IMG/VR virus record: IMGVR_UViG_3300048131_000244 | Coordinates: 1 to 53,734 of that record | DNA from: a virus | Strand: one strand, 5' to 3' | DNA: 53,734 nucleotides | In this document: positions 6,755 through 53,734 of the stretch, piece by piece | How positions within the stretch are numbered: the first letter of the stretch is position 1 | How the letters are laid out: every line of letters begins with the position of its first letter | Notes under the pieces: model-generated | What the model was told of the DNA's origin: nothing | Databases searched by the model: none | Seen by the model: the letters and a program-made list of their open reading frames with translations, nothing else | Position numbers and translations under genes: made by a program

Positions 6755-7027
6755 GAAGATAGTAAGTCCAATCAACTTCTTATGGTATTACAACGTAACC
6801 AAGCTGAAGTAGAACAACAACTAGGTACTCAATTAGCAAATTGGGACATTGACAACAATGATGATGCTTCAGCTACTGATGTAGACGAATTTGCTGGATT
6901 TTCATTTAAACTAGCTGATGAAGTACCTATGGATTTTAAAGGTGGTGGTTTTGGTGATGATGACACAGACCCAGAAATAATTAATATCGCTGGAAATAAA
7001 ATCGCAGTAATAAAATATAATTTATAA
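6707..7027 (+). CDS. Small protein with capsid-targeting-like N-terminal tag
   Basis: This 106-residue acidic protein begins MGNFDLKKYLAEGRL. The stretch up to Ala-Glu resembles the T4 capsid-targeting sequence (a short amphipathic helix cut after a hydrophobic-x-Glu by the gp21 protease). Removing it would leave about 94 residues. The first 48 bases are nearly identical to the start of the next gene (43 of 48), so the tag was duplicated or exchanged. No catalytic motif is visible. I infer a packaged internal head protein. Confidence 0.6.
   Translation: MGNFDLKKYLAEGRLFEDSKSNQLLMVLQRNQAEVEQQLGTQLANWDIDNNDDASATDVDEFAGFSFKLADEVPMDFKGGGFGDDDTDPEIINIAGNKIAVIKYNL
6998..7015 (+). repeat. AAATCGCAGTAAT motif, copy inside CDS
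   Basis: The 17 bases AAATCGCAGTAATAAAA occur here inside the end of the 6707 gene and again at 50508. A shorter form (AAATCGCAGTAAT) is at 47724. The function is unknown; see the copies flanking the envelope cassette. Confidence 0.4.
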
Positions 7028-7439: not shown

Positions 7440-7595
7440 ATGAATATAGATAAAGAATTCTACTTAGTAAGAAAAAAAGAAGGTAATTCATTTCAAAGAT
7501 TAATGATGTTTTTTTTAGAACAAAATAAAAAACATGGTGCTAGTTTTGGAGTAGCAGGAATGTATAATACTTTAAATAGATTTTATGGCGAGTAA
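7440..7595 (+). CDS. Small hypothetical protein (51 residues)
   Basis: This short frame starts MNIDKEFYLVRKKEG and ends inside the next gene, overlapping it by 11 bases. It is the first ATG after host-type promoter P1 and is mixed-charge with a helical middle (QRLMMFFLEQNKKHG). I recognise no family. Position and spacing make it a likely real gene, possibly helping translation of the FAD protein by coupling. Confidence 0.5.
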   Translation: MNIDKEFYLVRKKEGNSFQRLMMFFLEQNKKHGASFGVAGMYNTLNRFYGE

Positions 7596-8895
7596 AAACG
7601 TAGTAATGATTGGAGCAGGTGTAGCAAATGTAAATGCTGCTACCAAGCTAATTGACAACGGATTTAAAGGTAAAATTACTATTATTGATATGGGTAAAGA
7701 CCCATATAGAAGACCATACGAAGAGGTAATGACAGGTTTCCTAGGAGCAGGTGGTTGGAGTGATGGTAAACTAACTTATCACACAGCTATTGGTGGTCAT
7801 CTTTCTAAATATACTGGTGATGAAAAAGCAATGGAGTTGATGGATCAAGTGATTGAAAACTTTAAACGTTTCCACCCTAAACCAGAAGAAGTACAATGTT
7901 CAAACCCAATTGCAGAACCAGATTTTATTAAACCATACTTTGGATTAAGACTATTTCCAGTATGGCACGTTGGTACTGATTATTTACATGAAATAGGTAA
8001 AAATTGGTATGACTTTTTAGTTGATAATGGTGTTGAATTTCATTGGGAAACTAAAGTAACTGATATTGATTTTGAAAATAACAAAGCCATTCTTTGGGAG
8101 AATGAACGAAAGCAAGCTTATCTAAGATACGATGAACTTATCTTTGGAGTAGGTAAATCAGGTATTGATTTTGGTAAACAATTAGCCGAAAAATATGATT
8201 TACCAACTGAACCTAAACCAGTTCAAATAGGTGTTAGATTTGAAGCACCACAAAAACACTTTCAAAAATTAATTGATGTTTCTTACGATTTCAAATTATA
8301 TAGAAAATATGAAGATAAAGGAGTATCACTAAGATCATTTTGTACAAATAATAATGCTGCTTATGTTGCTGTAGAAGAAACATATGGTGATCACAGTTAC
8401 AATGGCCACGCTAAAAAAGATGAATCATTTAGAAATGATATGACTAACTTTGGTATTCTAATGGAAGTTAGAGGTATAGATAAACCATTTGATTGGTCTA
8501 GAGAAGTAGTAAATAAACTACAGAAAAATGGTACTGGTTTATATTACAGCCCAACTAGAGAACCATCTACAACATCTGAAGGTGTAGATGTATCAGCAGT
8601 TAAAGTAGATACACTGCATGAAATATCTAAAGCAATGCAACCCTATTTTGGTTATGTTTATGATTTTATTGAGGATATGAAAAAGGTATTCCCAACACTT
8701 AAGGATGATTGGGGTATTTATGTTCCTGAAGTAAAATACCTTTCACCTGAACCCTTAGTTAATTACGATGATTTGTCTTTAACTAAATTTCCAAATGTTC
8801 ACTTTGTAGGTGATGCTTTAAGTGCTAGAGGTATTACAGTATCAGGTTCTCAAGGTACACTTGTTGCCGAGAAAATTTTGGAAAAACTAAAATAA
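7585..8895 (+). CDS. FAD-dependent oxidoreductase-like protein
   Basis: This 436-residue protein has a Rossmann dinucleotide fold at the N-terminus (VVMIGAGVANVNAA, residues 6-19, ending in the acid of IIDMG), which binds FAD. A C-terminal segment, VHFVGDALSARGITVSGSQG, matches the second FAD-contacting motif (G-D-A). The middle is a substrate domain with aromatic and basic patches. This resembles the family of uncharacterised FAD-dependent dehydrogenases. No substrate can be named. It is driven by host-type promoter P1, apart from the virion genes, so it is a candidate metabolic helper gene. Confidence 0.75.
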   Translation: MASKNVVMIGAGVANVNAATKLIDNGFKGKITIIDMGKDPYRRPYEEVMTGFLGAGGWSDGKLTYHTAIGGHLSKYTGDEKAMELMDQVIENFKRFHPKPEEVQCSNPIAEPDFIKPYFGLRLFPVWHVGTDYLHEIGKNWYDFLVDNGVEFHWETKVTDIDFENNKAILWENERKQAYLRYDELIFGVGKSGIDFGKQLAEKYDLPTEPKPVQIGVRFEAPQKHFQKLIDVSYDFKLYRKYEDKGVSLRSFCTNNNAAYVAVEETYGDHSYNGHAKKDESFRNDMTNFGILMEVRGIDKPFDWSREVVNKLQKNGTGLYYSPTREPSTTSEGVDVSAVKVDTLHEISKAMQPYFGYVYDFIEDMKKVFPTLKDDWGIYVPEVKYLSPEPLVNYDDLSLTKFPNVHFVGDALSARGITVSGSQGTLVAEKILEKLK

Positions 8896-34770: not shown

Positions 34771-37700
34771 ATGAATGGAAACATAGTAGGAGAAGAATTT
34801 GAACCATATGTGTTTGGTGAAATTGCCTTTAGACAATCTATACAAGGTAAACAATCACGGAGCAATACGGATTTAAACTATCTAAGCAATCAAAGTTCTT
34901 GGATTAAGTTAGCGTCTCCTGTTTTTATTGAAGAAGGGGGTAAAGCCCGACTTAATAGTATTTTAGCAAATCCAACGGATGTAGACAAATATCAAGGAAT
35001 GGAACTAGCAAAAAATGCAGTTTTATTTAACGGGTTATCTTCTTTACAAGGAAAAACATACACCCAAAGAGCGGGAATTGTAAAAAATAACAGCAGACTT
35101 TGGGATGCAAAAGCAGCTTATGGTTTAGGGGGAAGTGATTTTGGTCTTCAACCTATGCCCGGGATTATAGATGCTGAGGTAAGATGCTTAAATAGGGGAT
35201 CTATTAAAAAAGCTTCTATTAATATAAGAGCATATAATAAATTTCAATTTGAAATTATTGAATTATTATATCTTAGATTAGGGTATACCATGATGTTAGA
35301 ATTTGGGAACCAAAAATACCCTGATAAAGATGGAAACATCTCAGAAGTAGGAAATACTCTTATAGAAGAATTATATTTTAATAAAGGCAGTAATGGTTTA
35401 ACTCAATTAGAGGTTTTAGATGAAATCGCTGGATTAAGAGATAAATATAATGGTAATTATGATGGTTTTTTTGGTAAGGTAGTAAATTTTGATTGGACTT
35501 TTAATGAAGATGGTAGTTATAGTATTAGGATAGATTTAATTACATTAGGAGATGTAATAGAATCTCTTCAAGCAAACCCTCCTATTGAATCCTACTTTCC
35601 TGAAAATCTAGATTCAAAATCATCATTAAAAACAAAACTAATTGAAAAAAATGAATCATTAAAAGATTCTCCAATTATAAATAATGCTTCAAATGATGTT
35701 CTTAGTGCTTTTATGTATACTAGTTTATTTGATGAAGATTTATGGAAAAAATCAAGAGGAGGAGAAAATGATAGATATGCTAATTATTTTAATTTATCTA
35801 AAGAATCAGACCAAGTAGCTAAAGATAAAAGAAAAAACTACCCCACAAAAATTCTAGCTAAGTATAGCTATTACATTACATTTGAAGAGTTATTAATACA
35901 AGTAAAAAAGTATTTAATCCCTAATGTAATAGCAAAAAATAAAAAAATAGAGGAACAATTATCTATCGATAACTCTCCTAGTACTTATGTAAATTATTTC
36001 CCAAACCAAATTTCATTTGATCCTAGAGTTTGTTTAATAAAACCTAGTCTTGGGGGGGCCAATATAGGGAAAATAAAAGTACCCGATATTTTTGAAGATC
36101 TTAAAAATTATGTTGGAATTGTAGAGGAAAATGTAGTAGTTGGACAACTAATGCATGTATATCTTAATTATGATTTTATTTCCCAATGCCTTTCAACTTC
36201 AAAAAATGATGAAAAAATCTCAATTTACACTTTCTTAAAAAAGATATGTGATGGGATTAATACAGCATTAGGTGGAGTAAATCAAATTGAAGTTATAATA
36301 GATGAATCCAATAATATAATTAAATTTATTGATCAAACCCCTATCCCAGGATTAGCAGAAACCAAAAAAAGAACAGATATTGTAGATTTAGAAGTATTTG
36401 GCTATAATAATGTTAATCAAACTTCAAATTTTGTTAAAGGTATAAATTTTAATACTAATATTACCCCTGAACTAGCTTCTATGATTACCATAGGGGCAAC
36501 AGCAAAGGGATCAAATGTTAAAAATGAAGACGCTACAGCATTTTCTAAATGGAATGCAGGGTTAACAGATAGATTTAATGAAGAAATTATTGATCCTAAA
36601 ATTAAAATAGACCCATTCAACCCTGAAGATGACCCTAAAAGATGGGAAGAAGAAGCTACAAATATTTGGGAAAACAAAGCAAAACCCGTTATGCTAAAAA
36701 CTACCTATAGAAGGAATAAGGCATTTAAAGAGGTAGAAACTACTGCAACAGTCAACAATTTTTCAATAGGTAACAATTATCAAGTAGACCCTACAGATAA
36801 AAAAGAAATTAACGAGGGAGAAATAGGTGAGGGTAAAAGGATTACTAAAGAAAATTATATTATCTATTATAAAACATATGTAGAAAAAACACTAAAAGAA
36901 AAAAATGCTATTGAAGAATTTAAATTTCAAAATGAATTAACTAAAAATTATGTTTTCTATTTATCCGATTGTTTTGGTGGGGATATAAAATATAATGTTT
37001 TTACAGGTAAAAAAGAATTTCAATTAAAAGAAAATAATGAAATTACTGCACTTGATATAGTCCTCCTCAGGATTTTCAACCAACCCGCTTTTAAAGAAAC
37101 AGATGTAAAAACTGTAGGAGGGAGTGGAAAAGTAAAATATTTAACATTTGATCCCTCTTTTATCAGTAGATCTAATGGAATTTACAAACATTATTTAAAT
37201 GTTTTTTTCCATTCTAAATTTAACACAGTTGCAGAAAATCAACTACCCTCTCAACCCTCCCCACAAATTGGATTTATACCAATTAGTTTTGATATTAATT
37301 TACAAGGAATTTCTGGTATAAAAATTTATAATAAATTAAACATTAACCAAAAGTTTTTACCACCCAATTATCCTCAAGCATTAAAATTTTTAATAACTAA
37401 AGTAGACCATACAATTAGTGATAATAATTGGAGTACAAATTTAGGTACACTTTCTATCCCCAATATAGACCCTGATGATTATAAACAAATTTGGAAAGAT
37501 ATTGGGGTGGATATTAAGGATTTAGGTAGTGTATTACTTCCTGAAGACCAACGAGGTCCAAAAGCTAAAGGAAATAAATTCACAATAGAAGACCATAGAG
37601 CTCCAAAATATAGAGGTAATCCTACTTTAGGTGAAGAGAAAACTCGAATAGCTCAAACCGGTAAAGTCTTTTCTGAGATGTCTTTAGAAAAATTAATCTC

Positions 37701-38121
37701 ACAATTTCACCCTCAATTTAGAAATAGATTTGCATCTTTCTTTACTGAAATGGATGAAAAATATAAAGGATATACTATAAAAATAAATTCAATACAAAGA
37801 GACCTTGAAACATCTCAAGACCTTAAAAAAGAAAACCCCAACAATGCTGACCCAGGTTATTCAAGACATAATTATAATACAGCTGTAGATTTTAATGTAA
37901 TAACCTCTGATGGAAAAGAATTAAAAAAATCAGTAAATCGAAATGATTGGATAAACCATGGTTTTAATAAATTAGCAGCTAAGCATAATCTAGACTGGGG
38001 TGGTAATTTTGATACCTATAATGATTATGTCCATTTTGCAGCAACAGATTATGATGTTTCAAAATCAATAACAGAATTTAATTCAGGAAAAGATGTAAAT
38101 TCAATAACATTAAAAACATAA
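34771..38121 (+). CDS. Baseplate hub protein with C-terminal M15 peptidase
   Basis: This 1116-residue protein joins hub-like domains to a lytic tip. The N-terminal 270 residues include GNYDGFFGKVVNFDWTFNED and IDLITLGDVIESLQ, seen in hub proteins of related phages. Long beta-rich and linker regions follow. The last 150 residues are an M15 (D-Ala-D-Ala carboxypeptidase/VanY-like) zinc peptidase: SRHNYNTAVDF gives His1033 and Asp1040, and DWGGNF followed by YVHFAA gives His1088. This should cut peptide bridges of peptidoglycan during entry, the job done by the gp5 lysozyme in T4. Confidence 0.78.
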   Translation: MNGNIVGEEFEPYVFGEIAFRQSIQGKQSRSNTDLNYLSNQSSWIKLASPVFIEEGGKARLNSILANPTDVDKYQGMELAKNAVLFNGLSSLQGKTYTQRAGIVKNNSRLWDAKAAYGLGGSDFGLQPMPGIIDAEVRCLNRGSIKKASINIRAYNKFQFEIIELLYLRLGYTMMLEFGNQKYPDKDGNISEVGNTLIEELYFNKGSNGLTQLEVLDEIAGLRDKYNGNYDGFFGKVVNFDWTFNEDGSYSIRIDLITLGDVIESLQANPPIESYFPENLDSKSSLKTKLIEKNESLKDSPIINNASNDVLSAFMYTSLFDEDLWKKSRGGENDRYANYFNLSKESDQVAKDKRKNYPTKILAKYSYYITFEELLIQVKKYLIPNVIAKNKKIEEQLSIDNSPSTYVNYFPNQISFDPRVCLIKPSLGGANIGKIKVPDIFEDLKNYVGIVEENVVVGQLMHVYLNYDFISQCLSTSKNDEKISIYTFLKKICDGINTALGGVNQIEVIIDESNNIIKFIDQTPIPGLAETKKRTDIVDLEVFGYNNVNQTSNFVKGINFNTNITPELASMITIGATAKGSNVKNEDATAFSKWNAGLTDRFNEEIIDPKIKIDPFNPEDDPKRWEEEATNIWENKAKPVMLKTTYRRNKAFKEVETTATVNNFSIGNNYQVDPTDKKEINEGEIGEGKRITKENYIIYYKTYVEKTLKEKNAIEEFKFQNELTKNYVFYLSDCFGGDIKYNVFTGKKEFQLKENNEITALDIVLLRIFNQPAFKETDVKTVGGSGKVKYLTFDPSFISRSNGIYKHYLNVFFHSKFNTVAENQLPSQPSPQIGFIPISFDINLQGISGIKIYNKLNINQKFLPPNYPQALKFLITKVDHTISDNNWSTNLGTLSIPNIDPDDYKQIWKDIGVDIKDLGSVLLPEDQRGPKAKGNKFTIEDHRAPKYRGNPTLGEEKTRIAQTGKVFSEMSLEKLISQFHPQFRNRFASFFTEMDEKYKGYTIKINSIQRDLETSQDLKKENPNNADPGYSRHNYNTAVDFNVITSDGKELKKSVNRNDWINHGFNKLAAKHNLDWGGNFDTYNDYVHFAATDYDVSKSITEFNSGKDVNSITLKT

Positions 38122-47612: not shown

Positions 47613-47638
47613 AAAGGGTGCGAAAGCACCCTTTTTTT
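47613..47638 (+). terminator. Intrinsic terminator after nrdA
   Basis: The stem AAAGGGTGC / GCACCCTTT with a GAAA tetraloop (47613-47634) runs into a T tract. It ends the replication and nucleotide operon. Confidence 0.93.
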
Positions 47639-47653
47639 ATTATATGTATTACC

Positions 47654-47667
47654 AACAACAACAAACA
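47654..47667 (+). repeat. AACAACAACAAACA shared leader element, copy 1
   Basis: The same 14 bases occur at 50583-50596, just before the second half of the envelope cassette. Both copies are in untranslated leaders. Confidence 0.45.
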
Positions 47668-47718: not shown

Positions 47719-47736
47719 TTGCTAAATCGCAGTAAT
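47719..47736 (+). repeat. TTGNTAAATCGCAGTAAT element, copy 1
   Basis: TTGCTAAATCGCAGTAAT lies one base before the ATG at 47738. A near-identical copy (one difference in 18) is at 50502-50519. The two flank the first four genes of the envelope cassette. Regulatory or recombination roles are possible. Confidence 0.5.
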
Positions 47737-47737
47737 T

Positions 47738-48208
47738 ATGAAATGGATAGTAATAGTCCTAAGTTGCCTAATAGGGTTTCTTGCTATAGGTCAAGAAATT
47801 AATATAGGCAAGGTAGACAATAAAATAGTATTAGGTGATCTCGCAGGTAATCGAGATCTAGCATTCGGTGTAAAGAATGTACTAGAAGAAGTAGTTCAAG
47901 ACTATGGCTACTATCTTAATCCTAACTCTCCATTAGAACTTACTGTAGACATATTATACTTTGATGTAAAGAAAAGTAATATGCAATTAGCTGTATATAG
48001 TAAAAATATAGATGTTTACCAAATAGCAGCACAAGCAACATTATATAAGGATGGAAAAAAGAAAAAGCGTGTATCTGCTAGAGGTACTGCTAAATCTATA
48101 TCAACCTCTACCTTAGTAATAGACAAAGGTGGAAAGTTTTCACAAGCAAATGTTTCAACAGCTATAAAAAAATTATGTGAACAATTGATTGATAAATTAA
48201 AATTATGA
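47738..48208 (+). CDS. Exported protein of envelope cassette
   Basis: This 156-residue protein has a signal peptide (MKWIVIVLSCLIGFLAIGQ) with the cut before Gln19-Glu20. A lipoprotein reading at Cys10 is unlikely because the Cys is mid-core. The mature part alternates strands and helices (LELTVDILYFDVKKSNMQ, then AQATLYKDGKKKKRVSARG) and ends in a helix. The build recalls small periplasmic or outer-membrane assembly proteins such as YajG or CsgG accessory proteins. Its stop overlaps the next gene by four bases. It is the first gene after the nrdA terminator. Confidence 0.5.
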   Translation: MKWIVIVLSCLIGFLAIGQEINIGKVDNKIVLGDLAGNRDLAFGVKNVLEEVVQDYGYYLNPNSPLELTVDILYFDVKKSNMQLAVYSKNIDVYQIAAQATLYKDGKKKKRVSARGTAKSISTSTLVIDKGGKFSQANVSTAIKKLCEQLIDKLKL

Positions 48209-49860
48209 AAAAATTACTTTATATATTAACTTTATTACCTTTAATAGCATTAGGGCAATCCTCATCTAATGGAATTGATGTTAGTTTGGAATTTAGAGGT
48301 ACTACAGAGGGTGAAAATGACTTAGCTAAGGTACAAGTTAATGACACTATTATTTTAGGAGTAAACTTGAATGATTTATCTGCTTACGATATTACTTTTA
48401 TCCATGCTGATATAGAATATAATAAAAATGCTTATACCCTATTAGACCCCGTATGGAAGATTAATGGAGCTAATAATAACCACTTCTTTTTTACTGATAC
48501 TAAATGGTCTCCTAACCCAAACTATGATGAAAATGATTTATGGGGCCAATGGAGTGGAGGAGGAGGTTCCTATAATGCAGTTAATGGTTGGGATGTAGGT
48601 CATTTTACTACTCAAGATTTAAGCTCATTTAGTGGCGATTATATTGAATTACATTTTATTGTTAAAAATACAGATGTATCTAATTATACTAAAGCTATTA
48701 ATATTACAATGGCTAAAATAGATGACAATAATCAAAATTATACCCATCCTGTTGGTTCAGTTAGAGCCCACCCAACTCAACAAATTTCAAATGTACCATT
48801 AGAAGACTTTGATAACAACGTTTATATTAAAGCAGAATTTAATAGTAATATAGATGCTACTAAAGTAAAAGTAGATATTAGTAAAGGAGAAGAATTAGAA
48901 TATGTTGGGAGTATTACTTTAGATTCTAATGGGGAAGCTAATGTAACTAATTACTTAAATAGTTCAACAGAAGATTATTATTTAAATTTCGTTTGGGATG
49001 GAACAGAAGAAGAATGGCAACAACTCAAAGATGAAGCCTTAACTATTTCAGATGCTGTATTAATCTTAAAAGAAACTGGTGGGTTTGACCATGGTAATAT
49101 GGGTAATGCTTACGAACATGGTATCCAATACCTAGCCACAGATTTTGATGCAAATGGATCAATCAATAGTCAAGATTCATTTGATTTATTAGCTCATGTT
49201 TTAGATGTAGCAGATGTATTTGTAAAATATATTGAAGATAAATTCAACTCAGGTGTTGCAGTTGTTCCATCTGCAGACTATGACGCAATAACTCCTAATA
49301 GTTGGGCAGAAAATGGTTTACCTGATGTAGGAGATGGAATTATAACAGTAGATTTATCTAATGGTGATATAATTTTACCATATAAATCAGCAATGTGGGG
49401 AGATGCTAACTTATCCCATGGAATTATCCCTTCTTCAGGTACAACCTCTCAATCTATGGCAATGATGAGAGTAAGATCTTATGGTCAATCAATGTTAGTA
49501 GAATCCAAAATTGATGCTGCTTATATTACTGAAATAAAAGGTGATGAAGTACATGTTACATTAGAACTTTTATCAAATGACACCTCAGCTTTACAAATTA
49601 AATTAGATTATGATGATACTAGATTAACATTTGAAGAAGCTAAATTTGATACAGGTAACACAACTACTAATTTTGGCAAATCAGATAATGGAAGAGTAAA
49701 TATGGGTAGTATAAATAGAAATGGTGAAACTATTCCTATCAACTCAACCATAAAAGCAATCTTTAAAGGAAATGTTAGCTCAGCTGCGGGGTTAATTTCT
49801 ATAGTAAGTACAGATGCTGCAAGTATAGCAGGAACAAGACAAACTTTAAACCTACAATAA
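48205..49860 (+). CDS. Large exported protein with cohesin-like and dockerin-like domains
   Basis: This 551-residue protein has a signal peptide (MKKLLYILTLLPLIALGQ). Residues 22-170 form a beta-rich domain with cohesin-like character (DTIILGVNLNDLSAYDITF, then HADIEYN). At 313-324, DFDANGSINSQD is a calcium-binding loop of the dockerin/EF-hand type, followed by the matching helix; a half-repeat (LTISDAVLILKET) precedes it. The last 100 residues form a second cohesin-like domain (VHVTLELLSNDTSALQIKLD). Such domain pairs bind each other on bacterial surfaces. A phage copy suggests a displayed or self-assembling envelope protein. Confidence 0.6.
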   Translation: MKKLLYILTLLPLIALGQSSSNGIDVSLEFRGTTEGENDLAKVQVNDTIILGVNLNDLSAYDITFIHADIEYNKNAYTLLDPVWKINGANNNHFFFTDTKWSPNPNYDENDLWGQWSGGGGSYNAVNGWDVGHFTTQDLSSFSGDYIELHFIVKNTDVSNYTKAINITMAKIDDNNQNYTHPVGSVRAHPTQQISNVPLEDFDNNVYIKAEFNSNIDATKVKVDISKGEELEYVGSITLDSNGEANVTNYLNSSTEDYYLNFVWDGTEEEWQQLKDEALTISDAVLILKETGGFDHGNMGNAYEHGIQYLATDFDANGSINSQDSFDLLAHVLDVADVFVKYIEDKFNSGVAVVPSADYDAITPNSWAENGLPDVGDGIITVDLSNGDIILPYKSAMWGDANLSHGIIPSSGTTSQSMAMMRVRSYGQSMLVESKIDAAYITEIKGDEVHVTLELLSNDTSALQIKLDYDDTRLTFEEAKFDTGNTTTNFGKSDNGRVNMGSINRNGETIPINSTIKAIFKGNVSSAAGLISIVSTDAASIAGTRQTLNLQ

Positions 49861-49861
49861 A

Positions 49862-50224
49862 ATGAAAAAATTATTATATTCTTTATTAGTATTACTTTTA
49901 ATGGCTTGTGCTCAAGATGATCAATTTATAGAAACACTTCCTATTGAAAATAAATTAGAGATAGCAGGATTAGAAGGATTAAAGTTCCAAAATAGCCAAA
50001 TCACAGATGGTTCATTATTTAACCTTAAAACTGAAACCTCAGGAAGATATATTTTAGAGATTAGAAACCATTTTAATGAATTAACCTCTAAATCTGTATT
50101 GAATATTCAAGCGGGTGATAATATAAAAGAATTTTATACTAAATCACTCAAAGATGGAGATTATACCCTTATCATTAGTAAAGATGGAAAAGAATTGTAT
50201 AACGTAAAGCAAATCATACAATAA
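49862..50224 (+). CDS. Small lipoprotein of envelope cassette
   Basis: This 120-residue protein has a lipoprotein signal ending LLMAC (Cys16). The mature part is a single beta-rich domain (ILEIRNHFNELTSKSVLNIQ, then GDYTLIISKDGKELYNV), of the type seen in C-terminal sorting or Ig-like domains. It should sit on the outer membrane or the periplasmic face. It starts one base after the previous gene and is coupled to the next (TAATG). No family is recognised. Confidence 0.6.
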   Translation: MKKLLYSLLVLLLMACAQDDQFIETLPIENKLEIAGLEGLKFQNSQITDGSLFNLKTETSGRYILEIRNHFNELTSKSVLNIQAGDNIKEFYTKSLKDGDYTLIISKDGKELYNVKQIIQ

Positions 50225-50508
50225 TGGCAGATAAGAAAGGATTTTTTAGTGAGATCAAAAACCAAATCATAACTACTATAGGTGTAATTATTACAGCTGC
50301 TGGTGGATTAGTAGTAACTAATATGGAAGCATTATTTGGAATAGATGAAGAACCCCAACAAATAGAAACTGCTGCTGTAACAGCAGAATCTAAAATAGAT
50401 ACTTTAGTAATTGTTCAAAAAGAACAACCTAAAGTTATAGTGAAAAAAGTCGAAGTTAAACCTAAAAAAACAAAAACAGAAGAAAGAAAGGATAACTTTG
50501 ATTGGTAA
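50224..50508 (+). CDS. Membrane protein with charged tail
   Basis: This 94-residue protein has an amphipathic start (MADKKGFFSEIKNQI) and one membrane segment at about 13-33 (TIGVIITAAGGLVVTNM). A Lys-rich tail follows (VIVKKVEVKPKKTKTEERK). It may anchor the cassette to the inner membrane or act as a small holin-like protein. It is the last gene before a hairpin terminator. Family not recognised. Confidence 0.5.
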   Translation: MADKKGFFSEIKNQIITTIGVIITAAGGLVVTNMEALFGIDEEPQQIETAAVTAESKIDTLVIVQKEQPKVIVKKVEVKPKKTKTEERKDNFDW

Positions 50509-50519
50509 ATCGCAGTAAT
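50502..50519 (+). repeat. TTGNTAAATCGCAGTAAT element, copy 2
   Basis: TTGGTAAATCGCAGTAAT overlaps the stop codon of the preceding gene. With the copy at 47719 it brackets the four-gene block 47738-50508. AAATCGCAGTAATAAAA also matches 17 bases at 6999-7015. Confidence 0.5.
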
Positions 50520-50523
50520 AAAA

Positions 50524-50557
50524 AAGACTCCTTTGCTGTAACAAAGAAGTCTTAGTT
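50524..50557 (+). terminator. Hairpin terminator in the envelope cassette
   Basis: The stem AAGACT(C)CTTTG / CAAAG(A)AGTCTT with a CTGTAA loop (50524-50553) is followed by AGTTTT. One C-A mismatch interrupts it. It separates the two halves of the cassette. Confidence 0.7.
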
Positions 50558-50582
50558 TTAAAAGAATTCAACCGTAACTTTA

Positions 50583-50596
50583 AACAACAACAAACA
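50583..50596 (+). repeat. AACAACAACAAACA shared leader element, copy 2
   Basis: This ends two bases before the ATG at 50599. The same 14 bases are at 47654-47667. It may be a translation enhancer in an AT-rich leader that lacks a Shine-Dalgarno sequence. Confidence 0.45.
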
Positions 50597-50598
50597 TT

Positions 50599-50811
50599 AT
50601 GAAACTTATGAACCCTTTTATATTAATATATAACCAATGGATGGCTAAACCAAGCCACCTTGACAAAGCAGTTTCCCTTCTTTTTGGACTTTGGGCTGCT
50701 ACATTAATTACTTTAGCTGTTAGTGGAATTGCATTTCTCATTACCGATATGATAATGAATCCTTCTACAATAGACAACATATCTTGGGGCCTTATCGATA
50801 ACCTTGGTTAA
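50599..50811 (+). CDS. Small single-pass membrane protein
   Basis: This 70-residue protein has an N-terminal cytoplasmic or amphipathic part (MKLMNPFILIYNQWMAKPS) and one strong membrane segment (about 25-50, VSLLFGLWAATLITLAVSGI), ending outside the membrane with NPSTIDNISWGLI. It overlaps the CsgG-like gene by eight bases, so the two are coupled. It may be a holin-like or membrane-adaptor protein; nothing decides this. Confidence 0.55.
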   Translation: MKLMNPFILIYNQWMAKPSHLDKAVSLLFGLWAATLITLAVSGIAFLITDMIMNPSTIDNISWGLIDNLG

Positions 50812-51517
50812 AAAGCTAATAATTGCTTTATTAATTTGCAATTATACTTTTGCTCAAGTCATAGGTAAAACTAAAACTGAGGATTATCAAGCGGATTTTG
50901 AAAAAAGAGCCTCATTATATTCAATTCCAGAGTACTTTGGTGACCCAGTCCCTGTAGCTTTACTTAATGTCGGTATTACAGATGATATACTAACACAATA
51001 TCCTGAATTAGGAGATTATCGTGTTGGCTTAGGTTTAACAAACATAACTGTAGCGTTTCTAGACGAAACGTTTAGGTTTGAATTTGTTGAAACTAAAGAC
51101 GAGATCAAAGATAGAATGATCTTACAATTTAAAGCATCCCAAAAAGGATTTACAGCTAATCAAATAGAAGTTAGAGGAAAAATTACTCTAGCTAAGTATT
51201 TTTCTTATGTGGAAATTTATGATTTTTCTATATCAGAAGATGAAACTATAAATCTTAAAGATGGTGTTAAAAACACACTTGTAACCAGATTAGGATTACA
51301 AGTTAAAATGGTAGACGCAGAAACTGGACTTTATATGACAGGTTCAGGACTAGGTCAAGCAATAACCATTAGAGAAGTAACCTTACTTAACGATGAAAAC
51401 TTAACTGAAGTAGCATTTAATCAATCAAGTATTGGTATTGCAACTCGTAAAGCATTAGAGACTGCAGTCGCAAAAATCGTTAAAAGAATGATTAGAAAAC
51501 AAATTTTTGATCACTAA
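50804..51517 (+). CDS. CsgG-like outer-membrane secretion channel protein
   Basis: This 237-residue protein fits the CsgG family, whose members form the outer-membrane pore for curli export. A signal peptide (VKKLIIALLICNYTFAQ) is followed by strands and helices; the C-terminus has NQSSIGIATRKALETAVAKI, the CsgG-type terminal helix. A lipobox is not clear (Cys12 in LLIC lacks the small residue before it), so it may not be acylated like E. coli CsgG. The start appears to be TTG at 50804, overlapping the previous gene; no ATG fits the signal peptide. It is followed by the barrel gene six bases on. Confidence 0.6.
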   Translation: MVKKLIIALLICNYTFAQVIGKTKTEDYQADFEKRASLYSIPEYFGDPVPVALLNVGITDDILTQYPELGDYRVGLGLTNITVAFLDETFRFEFVETKDEIKDRMILQFKASQKGFTANQIEVRGKITLAKYFSYVEIYDFSISEDETINLKDGVKNTLVTRLGLQVKMVDAETGLYMTGSGLGQAITIREVTLLNDENLTEVAFNQSSIGIATRKALETAVAKIVKRMIRKQIFDH

Positions 51518-51522
51518 GGGTT

Positions 51523-53208
51523 ATGATACGGTTACTATTTTTCATAGTGATTATTGCGATGGGGATGGCAAGGGGCTACTCACAGTCCCTTGTCCAAACC
51601 TATACCGATAGATGTACAGGACAAACTTATGTTTTTTCTGTACCTATGAATGGTACTGCCGTAGTAGCTTTTTATAATAAATCTAGAACATTTACTGCCC
51701 AACAATTTACAAATGGTGAATTAGAAACATGGCTAGAAGAAACTTATACTTGGTGGCAAACACTCTCACCTTGTTCTACTAATACAGCTACATCTCAAAC
51801 AACTCAACAAACAACTAATAACGCAACATCTAGTGCCGCTAATGCCGCAGCTAATGCTACTAGTGGGGCAACTCAAACCACAGGTACTACTGGAACGACT
51901 GGTACTACCGGTACTACAAATACTAGTAGTACAAATACAAGTTCAACTAATACAAATACAAATGGTACATCTAGCGGAAATTCTACATCGTCAAACTCAT
52001 CCTCTACTCCAGATAATTCCTCTTCGAATACATCTAATGATTCATCGTCTTCATCTCCTGATAATACATCTTCAGATAGCACATCAGGGAGTGGAGATGA
52101 CCAATCTAGTAATTCGTCAAATGAGTCATCAAGTAACACAGATGGAGAAACTCAAACTGAGGGAGAAAATGGAAACAACGAGAGCAATGAAGGAAACGAT
52201 ACTTCATCGGATCAAGAGGAAAATAGTACAGATTCGGAAAATCAAGAATCAGAATCTGATGAGGTAGAAGAAACTACTGAAGAAGAAACTACTGAAGAAA
52301 GTAGTGAAGAAGAATCATCTGAAGAGGAATCTACCGAAGAAGAATCTACTGAGGAAGAAAAAGAAGAGGAGCAAGAGGAAGAAAGCGAAGAAGAATCCAA
52401 AGAAGAAGAGGAGGAAGAAAGTGATGAAGAACAAGATAAAAAAGAAGAAAAAAGAAAAAGACGAAACCCTATAAACATTTCAGCAAACTTACTTACTCAG
52501 TCTTCTTTAGATAGTAGCATATCTAATGCTGTAAGTTTTGGTTTATCCCAATCTTCACTTACAGGAACAACAACATATTCTGCTAATGCTATGGTATGGG
52601 ATAATCTTAATCAATTCAGCCTAAGTGTATCTCAATCTGACGTTTATTTTAATTACGATAGAGAAGAAAAACTTTATTTAAGAAACCCTGAAACAGGTAA
52701 TAGAGATTTATATTTTGGATCTTATTATACTAAAGGAAGTATAATGATGGTACAATCTATATCAGCTTCATTTATGTACATTTATGGGACTAAAGTAGCT
52801 TCATTTGGGTTAAGTAATGTGTATATGGGTCAAAAAGATAATGCTTGGAAAGGATTTGTAGGTGGTTATGCTTTATCTGGTACTATAATTAATATAAAAG
52901 ATGATATAATGATAATGCCATCAGGTGTTTTATTCGGTACTAAACCATTCCCTACTAAACGAGTAACCATATCCCCTATGGTAGCTCTAGCATTTAATCC
53001 AGTATCCTATACCTTTAGTACTAAAAAAGCTATGTTTAAAGGAGATGTTGAACTTAATAAAGATATAACATATATTTTAGGATCTAACTTTGATTTAAAT
53101 ATATCACAAAGGTTTAAATTTAACATAGGAGGAAACATAATAGGCACAACAACTCCAGGAATCCCACTAACTTGGTCTGCTACTATTGGATCTAAATTCC
53201 AGTTTTAA
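51523..53208 (+). CDS. Outer-membrane beta-barrel protein with Thr/Ser and Glu-rich stalk
   Basis: This 561-residue protein has four parts: a signal peptide (MIRLLFFIVIIAMGMARGYSQ); a small domain with Cys31 and Cys80; a low-complexity stalk, first Thr/Ser/Asn-rich (about 85-230) and then Glu-rich (230-305); and a C-terminal barrel (about 315-561) of alternating strands ending in Phe (SKFQF), the outer-membrane insertion signature. The stalk could reach through the periplasm or out of the cell, and the barrel should insert in the outer membrane of the infected cell. Such a gene is unusual in a phage. It is coupled in position to the CsgG-like gene. Confidence 0.65.
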   Translation: MIRLLFFIVIIAMGMARGYSQSLVQTYTDRCTGQTYVFSVPMNGTAVVAFYNKSRTFTAQQFTNGELETWLEETYTWWQTLSPCSTNTATSQTTQQTTNNATSSAANAAANATSGATQTTGTTGTTGTTGTTNTSSTNTSSTNTNTNGTSSGNSTSSNSSSTPDNSSSNTSNDSSSSSPDNTSSDSTSGSGDDQSSNSSNESSSNTDGETQTEGENGNNESNEGNDTSSDQEENSTDSENQESESDEVEETTEEETTEESSEEESSEEESTEEESTEEEKEEEQEEESEEESKEEEEEESDEEQDKKEEKRKRRNPINISANLLTQSSLDSSISNAVSFGLSQSSLTGTTTYSANAMVWDNLNQFSLSVSQSDVYFNYDREEKLYLRNPETGNRDLYFGSYYTKGSIMMVQSISASFMYIYGTKVASFGLSNVYMGQKDNAWKGFVGGYALSGTIINIKDDIMIMPSGVLFGTKPFPTKRVTISPMVALAFNPVSYTFSTKKAMFKGDVELNKDITYILGSNFDLNISQRFKFNIGGNIIGTTTPGIPLTWSATIGSKFQF

Positions 53209-53247: not shown

Positions 53248-53505
53248 ATGTTTAAATACTTAAATAGAAAATGGATGGCTTTTAGAGATATTTTTAAAGA
53301 TGAAAATGACATCAACGAAAAATCAGTAGTTGGGTTTATCGCTTTTGCAGTAATGGTATTATTTGCATTAGCTGATTTATTCTTAGGATTTTTTGGTGGA
53401 AAAGACTTAATAATTAATGAACATATATATGATTCCTTTGTAATAGTTACTTTAGGAGCATTTGGTATTGCCGAAGCTGGTAATATATTTGGAAAGAAAA
53501 AATAA
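53248..53505 (+). CDS. Probable holin (two membrane segments)
   Basis: This 85-residue protein has two membrane segments (about 28-50, GFIAFAVMVLFALADLFLGF, and 61-79, YDSFVIVTLGAFGIAEAGNI) joined by a short loop, with a basic C-terminus (FGKKK). Size and layout fit a holin, and the next gene is an endolysin-type amidase overlapping it by one base (TAATG). A late-type promoter precedes it. The name rests on layout and neighbour. Confidence 0.65.
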   Translation: MFKYLNRKWMAFRDIFKDENDINEKSVVGFIAFAVMVLFALADLFLGFFGGKDLIINEHIYDSFVIVTLGAFGIAEAGNIFGKKK

Positions 53506-53734
53506 TGGCAGTAATAGAACCAAAAGGCATAGTAATTCATTCTATGGGAGAATACCTCCAATGGGAGGGAGAATGGCTAACAGCTCATGATTTTTTAAAA
53601 GAATTAAGACTTTCAGTTCATGGGTTTATCCATCCTGATGGTACTTATGAAAAAATGGTATCCTCTCCAGGAAAAGCAGCTCATGCAGGTAAATCCGAAT
53701 GGGATGGTTTACAACACCTTAATTCTCATTATTT
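53505..53734 (+). CDS. N-acetylmuramoyl-L-alanine amidase (endolysin), partial
   Basis: The first 76 residues are visible, and the gene runs off the window. VIHSMGEYL carries the first zinc-site His, and HGFIHPDGTYEKMVSSPGKA followed by AHAGKSEW is the amidase-2/PGRP fold with the expected loop. Late residues (LNSHY) match the N-x-x-S position. It should cut the bond between muramic acid and the peptide at lysis. It starts inside the stop of the holin-like gene, forming a lysis cassette. Confidence 0.8.
   Translation, partial: MAVIEPKGIVIHSMGEYLQWEGEWLTAHDFLKELRLSVHGFIHPDGTYEKMVSSPGKAAHAGKSEWDGLQHLNSHY

Follow-up and report, generated by a model that had tools for sequence, protein, structure and literature searches.

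Among the described systems, the curli (type VIII secretion) operons of pelagiphages and methylophages come nearest in concept to the locus reported here, and in the accessible portions of the papers that describe them their function is debated between surface aggregation and the timing of lysis (PMC7029224, PMC9004378, PMC9599517). The locus is a cassette of seven genes, g1 to g7, at positions 47738-53208 on the plus strand of IMG/VR record IMGVR_UViG_3300048131_000244, of which the whole 53,734 nt stretch was analysed and is termed the window. Like the curli operons it is a phage-borne multi-gene envelope operon with a protein of putative CsgG-type fold. In those operons, as far as the available text goes, CsgG and CsgF group with their alphaproteobacterial counterparts, whereas the cassette gave no Csg family match among the proteins scanned and adds a predicted 12-strand barrel, a YajG-like protein, a candidate cohesin cargo and a domain of the type IX secretion system (T9SS) type.

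The T9SS-type domain also has a precedent in phages. In the accessible part of the account of Cryophage, variable genes bear T9SS type-A sorting domains, one of them with PA14, and were proposed to alter host secretion or display (PMC7468147), and T9SS-tailed phage genes are likewise mentioned near BACON-repeat genes in the available part of a report on crAss-like phages (PMC6949934). From what that text gives, the Cryophage genes are single cargo genes, whereas the present cassette is conserved as a module, includes a barrel and periplasmic proteins, and mostly encodes the sorting-type domain in a lipoprotein gene of its own. A further likeness is to T5 Llp, a lipoprotein that the phage places at the outer membrane to prevent use of the receptor; in the accessible text it is a single small lipoprotein with no display module (PMC9586334). 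In the open PMC literature, which mostly leaves out subscription papers, no report described the cassette or a T9SS domain that is split or occurs together with a barrel, and we therefore take the cassette as a new variant of phage envelope-remodelling modules and perhaps a new kind.

We favour, at about an even chance, the reading that the cassette is a surface-display module of Bacteroidota phages by which the surface of the infected cell is masked or remodelled. An earlier note on this DNA had likewise spoken of a secretion and surface-display system, and that view is strengthened by the shared gene order, the predicted barrel, the cohesin, lectin and PA14 proteins, the T9SS-type domain and the surface-lipoprotein-like signal of most g3 proteins. 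If it is true, large Bacteroidota phages would rebuild the host surface with adhesin-type proteins via type IX parts, and a testable angle on the purpose of phage-borne curli-like operons would be gained. The cultured Flavobacterium phage immuto makes the cassette directly testable.

Conservation and order of the cassette

In the window the seven open reading frames (ORFs) follow each other head-to-tail on the plus strand with gaps of -4, 1, -1, 90, -8 and 5 bases, and the earlier description of seven consecutive exported or membrane products between an nrdA terminator and the lysis genes agrees with their coordinates, strand, packing and hydrophobic N-termini. Relatives of g6 were present in 554 of 583 candidate IMG/VR stretches in the g6 search. 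The loci analysed came from scans of which this one contributed the best 80 of the 554, with profiles seeded from the first 40 loci; the locus sets are conditioned on the presence of g6 and include near-duplicates. Before counting, identical g6 proteins, loci with short flanks (the window among these) and one locus that is a piece of the window (L042) were removed and a locus with a broken g6 (L080) was excluded, leaving 57 distinct full-context loci, in which strict labels required a profile coverage of at least 60%. Among them g6 and g7 were each present in 57, g2 in 55, g1 in 54, g3 in 51, g4 in 49 and g5 in 23, where the strict g2 profile misses the proteins bearing a C-terminal domain (CTD) in loci L001 and L044 despite their Pfam cohesin.

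The earlier note had suggested looking for co-occurrence of the genes in related phage contigs and had held that scattered genes with no shared order would speak against it; instead, the order g1-g2-g6-g7 was shared by 53 of the 57 loci and by 26 of the 30 clusters formed at 90% g6 identity. In 53 of 58 loci no more than 150 bases separated g6 from the start of g7, and the cassette remained intact with nrdAB either upstream or downstream, a position that changed at least twice on the g6 tree. The cassette is a real module, with an order beyond chance.

Export-type N-termini, scored by a simple hydropathy rule as a hydrophobic stretch within the first 35 residues, were found in the relatives of g1 (68/70), g2 (79/83), g3 (72/72), g4 (60/64), g6 (79/81) and g7 (80/81), against 197 of 835 other ORFs of at least 100 aa and none of 34 nrdA proteins; among g5 relatives only 13 of 30 had one. 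These counts, as well as those of protein identities, lysis neighbourhood (55 loci) and EF-hand loops, use loose labels, of which the one for g2 also takes in other exported proteins such as the nuclease of immuto. The cassette families differ widely in divergence, with median pairwise identities of 24% for g2, 28% for g3 and 69% for g6 against 62% for nrdA, so that g2 and g3 are the most divergent and g6 the least among the cassette families measured.

In culture, the cassette has a relative in Flavobacterium phage immuto (g6 at 48% identity, four records), where kin of g1, g4, g6 and g7 stand in one block together with cohesin/CTD and lectin proteins. A g6 relative occurred in only one of the 296 genomes sampled from a phylum that we take to be Bacteroidota. 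It shared a short contig with relatives of g1-g4 and, at the contig edge, with one of g7 (loose labels), and because of this company the match is most likely itself a phage. The contrast between 554 places in IMG/VR and one in 296 sampled genomes points to a widespread, phage-owned module. SprA, the T9SS translocon, was found in each of the two assemblies with a g6 contig.

A T9SS-type domain either separate or fused

By profile comparison, g3 is a T9SS CTD-type protein that in some phages is replaced by a CTD fused to the cohesin/g2-type protein, which is a new finding. The gene (49862..50224) encodes a 120 aa lipoprotein with acidic residues after the cysteine (CAQDDQ) and a domain resembling the T9SS type-A CTD. 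Its call as a lipoprotein, already made in the earlier note, is confirmed by a cysteine invariant in 38 of 38 members and a lipobox pattern in 64 of 72. In the g3 family, 26 of 38 members matched Por_Secre_tail at E ≤1, the best at 1.3e-7. Comparison of hidden Markov models (HMM-HMM) aligned g3 with the fused CTDs at 94% (P 8.4e-8). Seven of the nine control families stayed at or below 4.5%, and the other two (40% and 53%) aligned via the N-terminal signal region. In the reverse direction, a profile of the fused CTDs, built on the very proteins that carry them, ranked the seven fused proteins first, and the next 13 of 13 matches listed were g3-type proteins.

The fused form was recognised above the Pfam cut-offs, since the protein in the place of g2 ends in a T9SS CTD in L044 (1.9e-11), L073 (3.4e-11) and L078 (1.1e-7), and immuto gp015 combines a cohesin with a T9SS C-terminal sorting domain, both above cut-off. 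These three loci and that of immuto are without g3. Across the 57 full-context loci under strict labels, 51 had g3 only, six the fused CTD only, and none both or neither, where the fused state was called by that same fused-CTD profile; the corresponding counts for the 30 clusters were 25, 5, 0 and 0, with at least two changes of state on the g6 tree. Por_Secre_tail gave no Pfam match on g2 of the window or on six g2-labelled proteins of g3-bearing loci (L004, L005, L009, L027, L039 and L085).

At least two acidic residues occurred at positions +3 to +6 after the cysteine in 46 of 72 unique g3 proteins as against 1 of 42 other lipoprotein-like ORFs. They resemble the surface-lipoprotein signals which the accessible part of a study gives for Capnocytophaga and Flavobacterium, K-(D/E)2 or Q-A-(D/E)2 and SDDFE (PMC5080379), an analogy by which g3 may be a lipoprotein of the cell surface.

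The putative partner of this domain is g2 (48205..49860), an exported protein of 551 aa that looks like variable cargo, with one or more cohesin-like domains and a weakly dockerin-like middle. Of the cohesin/dockerin call in the earlier note, the cohesin part is supported via the relatives and the dockerin part remains weak. The cohesin of the window (residues 446-504) matched Pfam at E 0.013, whereas relatives not reached by the strict g2 profile exceeded the cut-off (L044 at 5.3e-9, immuto gp015 at 5.9e-9), and against solved structures the g2 profile found a cellulosomal scaffoldin cohesin at E 6.1e-4 and a dockerin at E 0.022. In the window g2 has a single EF-hand/dockerin-like loop, DFDANGSINSQD, at residues 313-324 (49141..49176), and as the loop pattern was present in only 13 of 83 proteins labelled g2 (loose labels; 0.9 expected by shuffling), we keep 'dockerin-like' as a weak term. 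Companions of the cassette in other phages include proteins with C-type lectin and PA14 domains (Pfam), and these, together with the divergence of g2 and g3, are as expected of displayed cargo.

The barrel protein g7

The last gene of the cassette, g7 (51523..53208), encodes a protein of 561 aa that is predicted to form an outer-membrane barrel. From its N-terminus it consists of a domain of residues 22-82 (51586..51768), a polar helix rich in Ala, Thr and Asn at residues 86-118 (51778..51876), a disordered linker that is Ser/Thr-rich and then Glu-rich (51877..52452), and a C-terminal barrel to which we assign 12 strands by our own grouping of DSSP elements (52474..53202). The stalk and the Phe-ending barrel described in the earlier note are both borne out, the former as the disordered linker and the latter by an AlphaFold model built from 24 sequences, in which the barrel occupies residues 318-560 with a predicted local distance difference test (pLDDT) score of 72-92 in ten-residue blocks. 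VIA-align superposed the barrel best on 12-strand autotransporter translocators, namely NalP with Z 23.8 (rmsd 2.9 over 230 residues) and EspP (Z ~20), followed by the COG4313 channel (19.6) and FapF (19.0), and Foldseek gave FapF as the best PDB match (E 1.6e-6). The C-terminal residue was F, L, I or Y in all 76 relatives (F in the window), all of which also carried at least two cysteines within residues 19-105.

The alignments to NalP, EspP and FapF chains begin at model residues 66-105, which would place the polar helix in the barrel lumen as in autotransporters and FapF; the pLDDT drops to 54 in the last block of the helix, and the model suggests rather than fixes this position. On structural likeness, g7 is an autotransporter/FapF-like barrel for which export of a passenger or substrate is predicted at most. 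With FapF and the type Va autotransporters it would share the 12-strand barrel, the N-terminal domain, a helix in or at the lumen and a disordered linker, at about 10% identity in the structural alignments; it differs from FapF in that its helix precedes a long acidic linker, where the available text on FapF gives a coiled coil, a linker and a plug (PMC5557850). A tblastn search with g7 against the phage collection gave no match, though immuto gp018 fits the g7 profile, and Foldseek against viral models returned matches at E 2e-5 or weaker, the best of which include other phage outer-membrane barrels.

A proposed course of surface display

Building on what was computed, namely the gene order, the export-type N-termini, the predicted barrel, the kinship and complementarity of g3 and the fused CTDs and the lysis-gene neighbourhood, we infer the binding partners, the timing, the route of g2 and the purpose of the cassette as follows. 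The cassette would probably be transcribed as one unit, presumably late, near the lysis genes. The variable cohesin-type g2 may be the displayed cargo, joined by lectin and PA14 companions in other phages, and the T9SS-type CTD would bring it to the cell surface or hold it there, either fused to the cohesin/g2-type protein, as in some phages, or as the separate putative surface lipoprotein g3, as in most phages, including that of the window. The g7 barrel, with its N-terminal Cys-pair domain, polar lumen helix and acidic linker, would be the outer-membrane gate, with g6 as its candidate periplasmic partner, g1 as a second periplasmic protein of YajG-like type and g4, whose tail ends in Trp, as a possible inner-membrane tether. 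The surface of the dying cell would thus be masked or remodelled, which would keep sibling virions from infecting it again and from sticking to its debris. This purpose is suggested by the lysis neighbourhood and by the literature on superinfection-exclusion proteins such as T5 Llp, which, in the part of that paper available, also block adsorption to lysed cell fragments (PMC9586334).

Several points weigh against surface display. The match of the window g3 to Por_Secre_tail reaches only E 0.043 and that to TIGR04183 E 0.095, both below the cut-offs, 12 of 38 g3 members have no Por_Secre_tail match, and under the stricter demand of two adjacent acidic residues at +2 to +7 after the cysteine only 38 of 72 qualify. 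A plain signal peptide is the norm for T9SS cargo, and g3, being a lipoprotein, may therefore use the Ig-like CTD fold for another job. The arrival of g2 at the surface in phages without a fused CTD is a step that we infer. The lumen position of the g7 helix comes from one model, and the fold of g6 from a poor one (pLDDT 49). Many phages make their superinfection-exclusion proteins early, as the accessible text of the same paper states, which fits a late cassette less well (PMC9586334). Besides, the steady neighbourhood of lysis genes fits a role in lysis equally.

In a rather unlikely extension of surface display, the cassette would build a viral surface coat through a gate of its own (g7 with g6, g1 and g4), where the T9SS-type tail of the surface lipoprotein g3 would hold the cohesin/dockerin-type g2 in trans and the copies of g2 would join into a layer on the infected cell. 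Such a coat would exclude rivals and keep progeny off debris. It would amount to type IX display in a split form owned by the virus, a kind of secretion/display module not described before.

Neighbourhood of lysis genes

The alternative to be weighed first is that the cassette belongs to lysis and breaches or weakens the Bacteroidota outer membrane in the manner of spanins or a pore, with g4 in the inner membrane and g3, g6 and g7 at the outer membrane as a trans-envelope complex; the earlier note had also named preparation of the outer membrane for lysis, and we consider this alternative possible, if on the unlikely side. It draws on a survey of 55 loci with longer flanks (nine have less than 7 kb on a side), in which an endolysin-type gene lay within 7 kb of g6 in 46 and any lysis-type gene in 48 (loose labels). 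The endolysins belonged to the Amidase_2, M15_3 or GH19 families by seed matches in 34 loci, while for an unclassified 200-aa family (10 loci) and DUF5675 (2 loci) 'endolysin' is our own label. The endolysin type switches at least nine times on the g6 tree, and thus the cassette stays while the endolysin changes. The same alternative can call on holin-like or amidase genes within the cassette in L007, L046, L050 and L064, on the annotated endolysin of immuto about 7.7 kb after g6, and on the encoding of the g3 lipoprotein and the inner-membrane-type g4 by adjacent genes. However, a separate Rz/Rz1-like overlapping pair (our label, by geometry) follows the endolysin in 12 of the 55 loci, seven loci including that of immuto have no lysis-type gene within 7 kb (for one of the seven, L047, the flank on a side is shorter than 7 kb), and the cohesin, lectin and PA14 domains and the fused T9SS CTDs have no obvious lytic use. 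Against g3 and g4 as a candidate spanin pair speak the T9SS-type domain of g3, the Lys/Pro/Gln-rich tail of g4 and the separate Rz/Rz1-like pairs.

Other genes were observed in this neighbourhood. Examples of the Rz/Rz1-like pairs are L006:11197-11881, L034:10716-11370 and L060:10631-11330, each with a protein of hydrophobic N-terminus and coiled-coil look and then an exported protein. The 200-aa family (L006:10550-11155) stands in the endolysin place in 10 of the 55 loci and matches nothing in Pfam at E 0.01; inspection by eye hints at a possible His...SxGC motif, which we take to be like that of L,D-transpeptidases. An exported DNA/RNA non-specific endonuclease occurs in or near the cassette in 13 of the 55 loci, or 14 with immuto gp012 (L001:8205-8783), as for example in L023:7189-7797 (PF01223, E 1.1e-19), and could serve superinfection exclusion or clearance of DNA at lysis. 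A Class 3 lipase gene follows g7 near the endolysin genes in L075:6170-6949 (PF01764, E 6.1e-25), L079, L085 and L086.

The fold of g6 and the resemblance to curli secretion

A second alternative, which we hold to be distinctly improbable, is a curli- or Fap-like secretion system, in which g6 as a CsgG-type pore or g7 as a FapF-type gate would export an amyloid or fibre subunit and thereby aggregate cells. Precedent exists in the CsgG/CsgF operons of pelagiphages, as the accessible text of two reports describes them (PMC7029224, PMC9599517), and the first choices of Foldseek point the same way, with FapF for g7 and CsgG (PDB, E 6.8e-7) for g6, followed by PelC, FlgT, HpaA and LptE. The gene g6 (50804..51517, TTG start) encodes an exported protein of 237 aa with a fold like that of the CsgG/LptE/PelC superfamily. 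It is the most conserved cassette protein measured, for which reason its alignment is starved of diversity. VIA-align ranked Cj1090c, which we take to be LptE-type (Z 11.7, rmsd 3.2, 130 residues aligned), and LptE (Z 9.4) no lower than CsgG (Z 9.0, rmsd 6.3, 173 aligned) for g6, just as it ranked autotransporters and the COG4313 channel no lower than FapF for g7.

The assignment of g6 as CsgG was further unsupported by Pfam, where PF03783 matched neither the window nor any of 22 g6 members at E ≤1, by a search of its own record, by HMM-HMM comparison with 13 CsgG-type sequences, where the alignment with Bacteroidota CsgG was collinear and weak (1.7%, P 0.028), and by a profile search of solved structures (no match at E 10). 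A CsgG subunit contributes two transmembrane beta-hairpins. The low-confidence model of g6 has long strands only at residues 132-150, 154-171 and 177-192, which make one long hairpin, and no conserved cysteine or lipobox was seen by eye in the 22-member alignment. The CsgG, CsgE, CsgF and CsgA families were absent among the ten proteins of the region scanned with Pfam, PHROGs and NCBIfam, by which divergent versions could be missed, and neither g6 nor g7 had a convincing match to a curated family in these collections. The tandem DNA repeats of the cassette lie in the g7 linker, the sole exception being a weak array of two copies where g1 meets g2, and this is a further point against the curli- or Fap-like alternative. 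The 'CsgG-like channel' of the earlier note is not supported, and g6 is filed, on its model, as CsgG/LptE-superfamily-like and not as a pore.

Another comparison is with LptDE, PelBC and similar pairs of a barrel and a lipoprotein. The likeness would be that a barrel has a small periplasmic protein of CsgG/LptE-like fold dedicated to it; g6 differs in having no lipobox, and its pairing with g7 is here a prediction.

Hardly probable is the remaining alternative, that the cohesin, lectin and PA14 proteins decorate the virus particle for adsorption while the other members aid their export and capture at lysis, for although g2 is highly variable and adhesin-type domains occur on phage particles generally, most cassette members have hydrophobic export-type N-termini, some proteins have fused T9SS CTDs, and the cassette lies outside the 11-29 kb region in which this contig of a contractile-tailed phage gave matches to terminase, portal, major head protein and tail sheath.

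Smaller cassette genes, regulatory motifs and flanking genes

The first gene, g1 (47738..48208), encodes an exported protein of 156 aa resembling YajG/Lipoprotein_16. The window protein matched PF03923 at E 7e-4 and NF008637 at 4.1e-6, both below the cut-offs, and PF03923 was matched by 17 of 19 family members at E ≤1 (best 4.3e-6). No lipobox was seen by eye, and the g1 profile searched against solved structures met only unrelated proteins at E ≥0.11. In tblastn against phage records g1 hit one unannotated 3.7 kb Escherichia record (35.6%, E 2e-3), which we suspect to be chromosomal yajG. The protein of g4 (50224..50508, 94 aa) has a single hydrophobic, transmembrane-like stretch, a topology read by eye, and a tail rich in Lys, Pro, Gln and Glu that ends in a Trp found in all 64 unique relatives. 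The small g5 (50599..50811, 70 aa) is membrane-like.

Upstream of the cassette, a terminator-like hairpin with a T run was read by eye 3' of nrdA (47613..47639) and is followed by a promoter-like TTATATGTAT (47640..47649), both on the plus strand. The motif TATAT[TG]TAT occurred within 250 nt upstream of 27 of 71 g1 relatives against 31 of 1098 other ORFs, the motif having been chosen from the same sequences. It was not found before g2-g5 and was found before only 1 of 84 g6 and 1 of 88 g7 genes, a distribution that fits a single transcription unit. The motif presumably resembles T4 late promoters. As a late promoter it was not retained: it is enriched, but was derived from the very sequences in which it was counted, and within the window by itself its occurrence is no rarer than expected by chance.

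Short repeats were also noted. The exact 13-base AAATCGCAGTAAT occurs three times in the window, before g1 (47724-47736), at the end of g4 (50507-50519) and at the end of an ORF (6999-7011), with an expectation of 0.06 when one mismatch is allowed. It was rejected as a regulatory element, one copy being within an ORF and its 12-base core being shared by no more than 4 of 121 loci, the piece of the window included. An exact AACAACAACAAAC stands before g1 (47654-47666) and just before g5 (50583-50595), with 0.15 expected and three found when one mismatch is allowed, and the gap between g4 and g5 also holds a stem-loop-like inverted repeat, seen by eye (50524-50553).

Downstream of the cassette lie g8 (53248..53505, plus strand), an 85 aa protein with two hydrophobic stretches by eye that is holin-like from its size and place only and had no convincing family match in Pfam or PHROGs, and g9 (53505..53734, plus strand), an Amidase_2 endolysin truncated at the end of the window (PF01510, E 8.1e-6; phrog_1794 amidase). 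Elsewhere in the window, a dehydrogenase-like phage protein is encoded at 7585-8895 (phrog_12409, E 1.5e-22), and a protein of 1116 aa at 34771-38121, perhaps a baseplate-associated lysozyme, carries an endolysin-type domain close to its C-terminal end (phrog_2649, E 2.6e-8).

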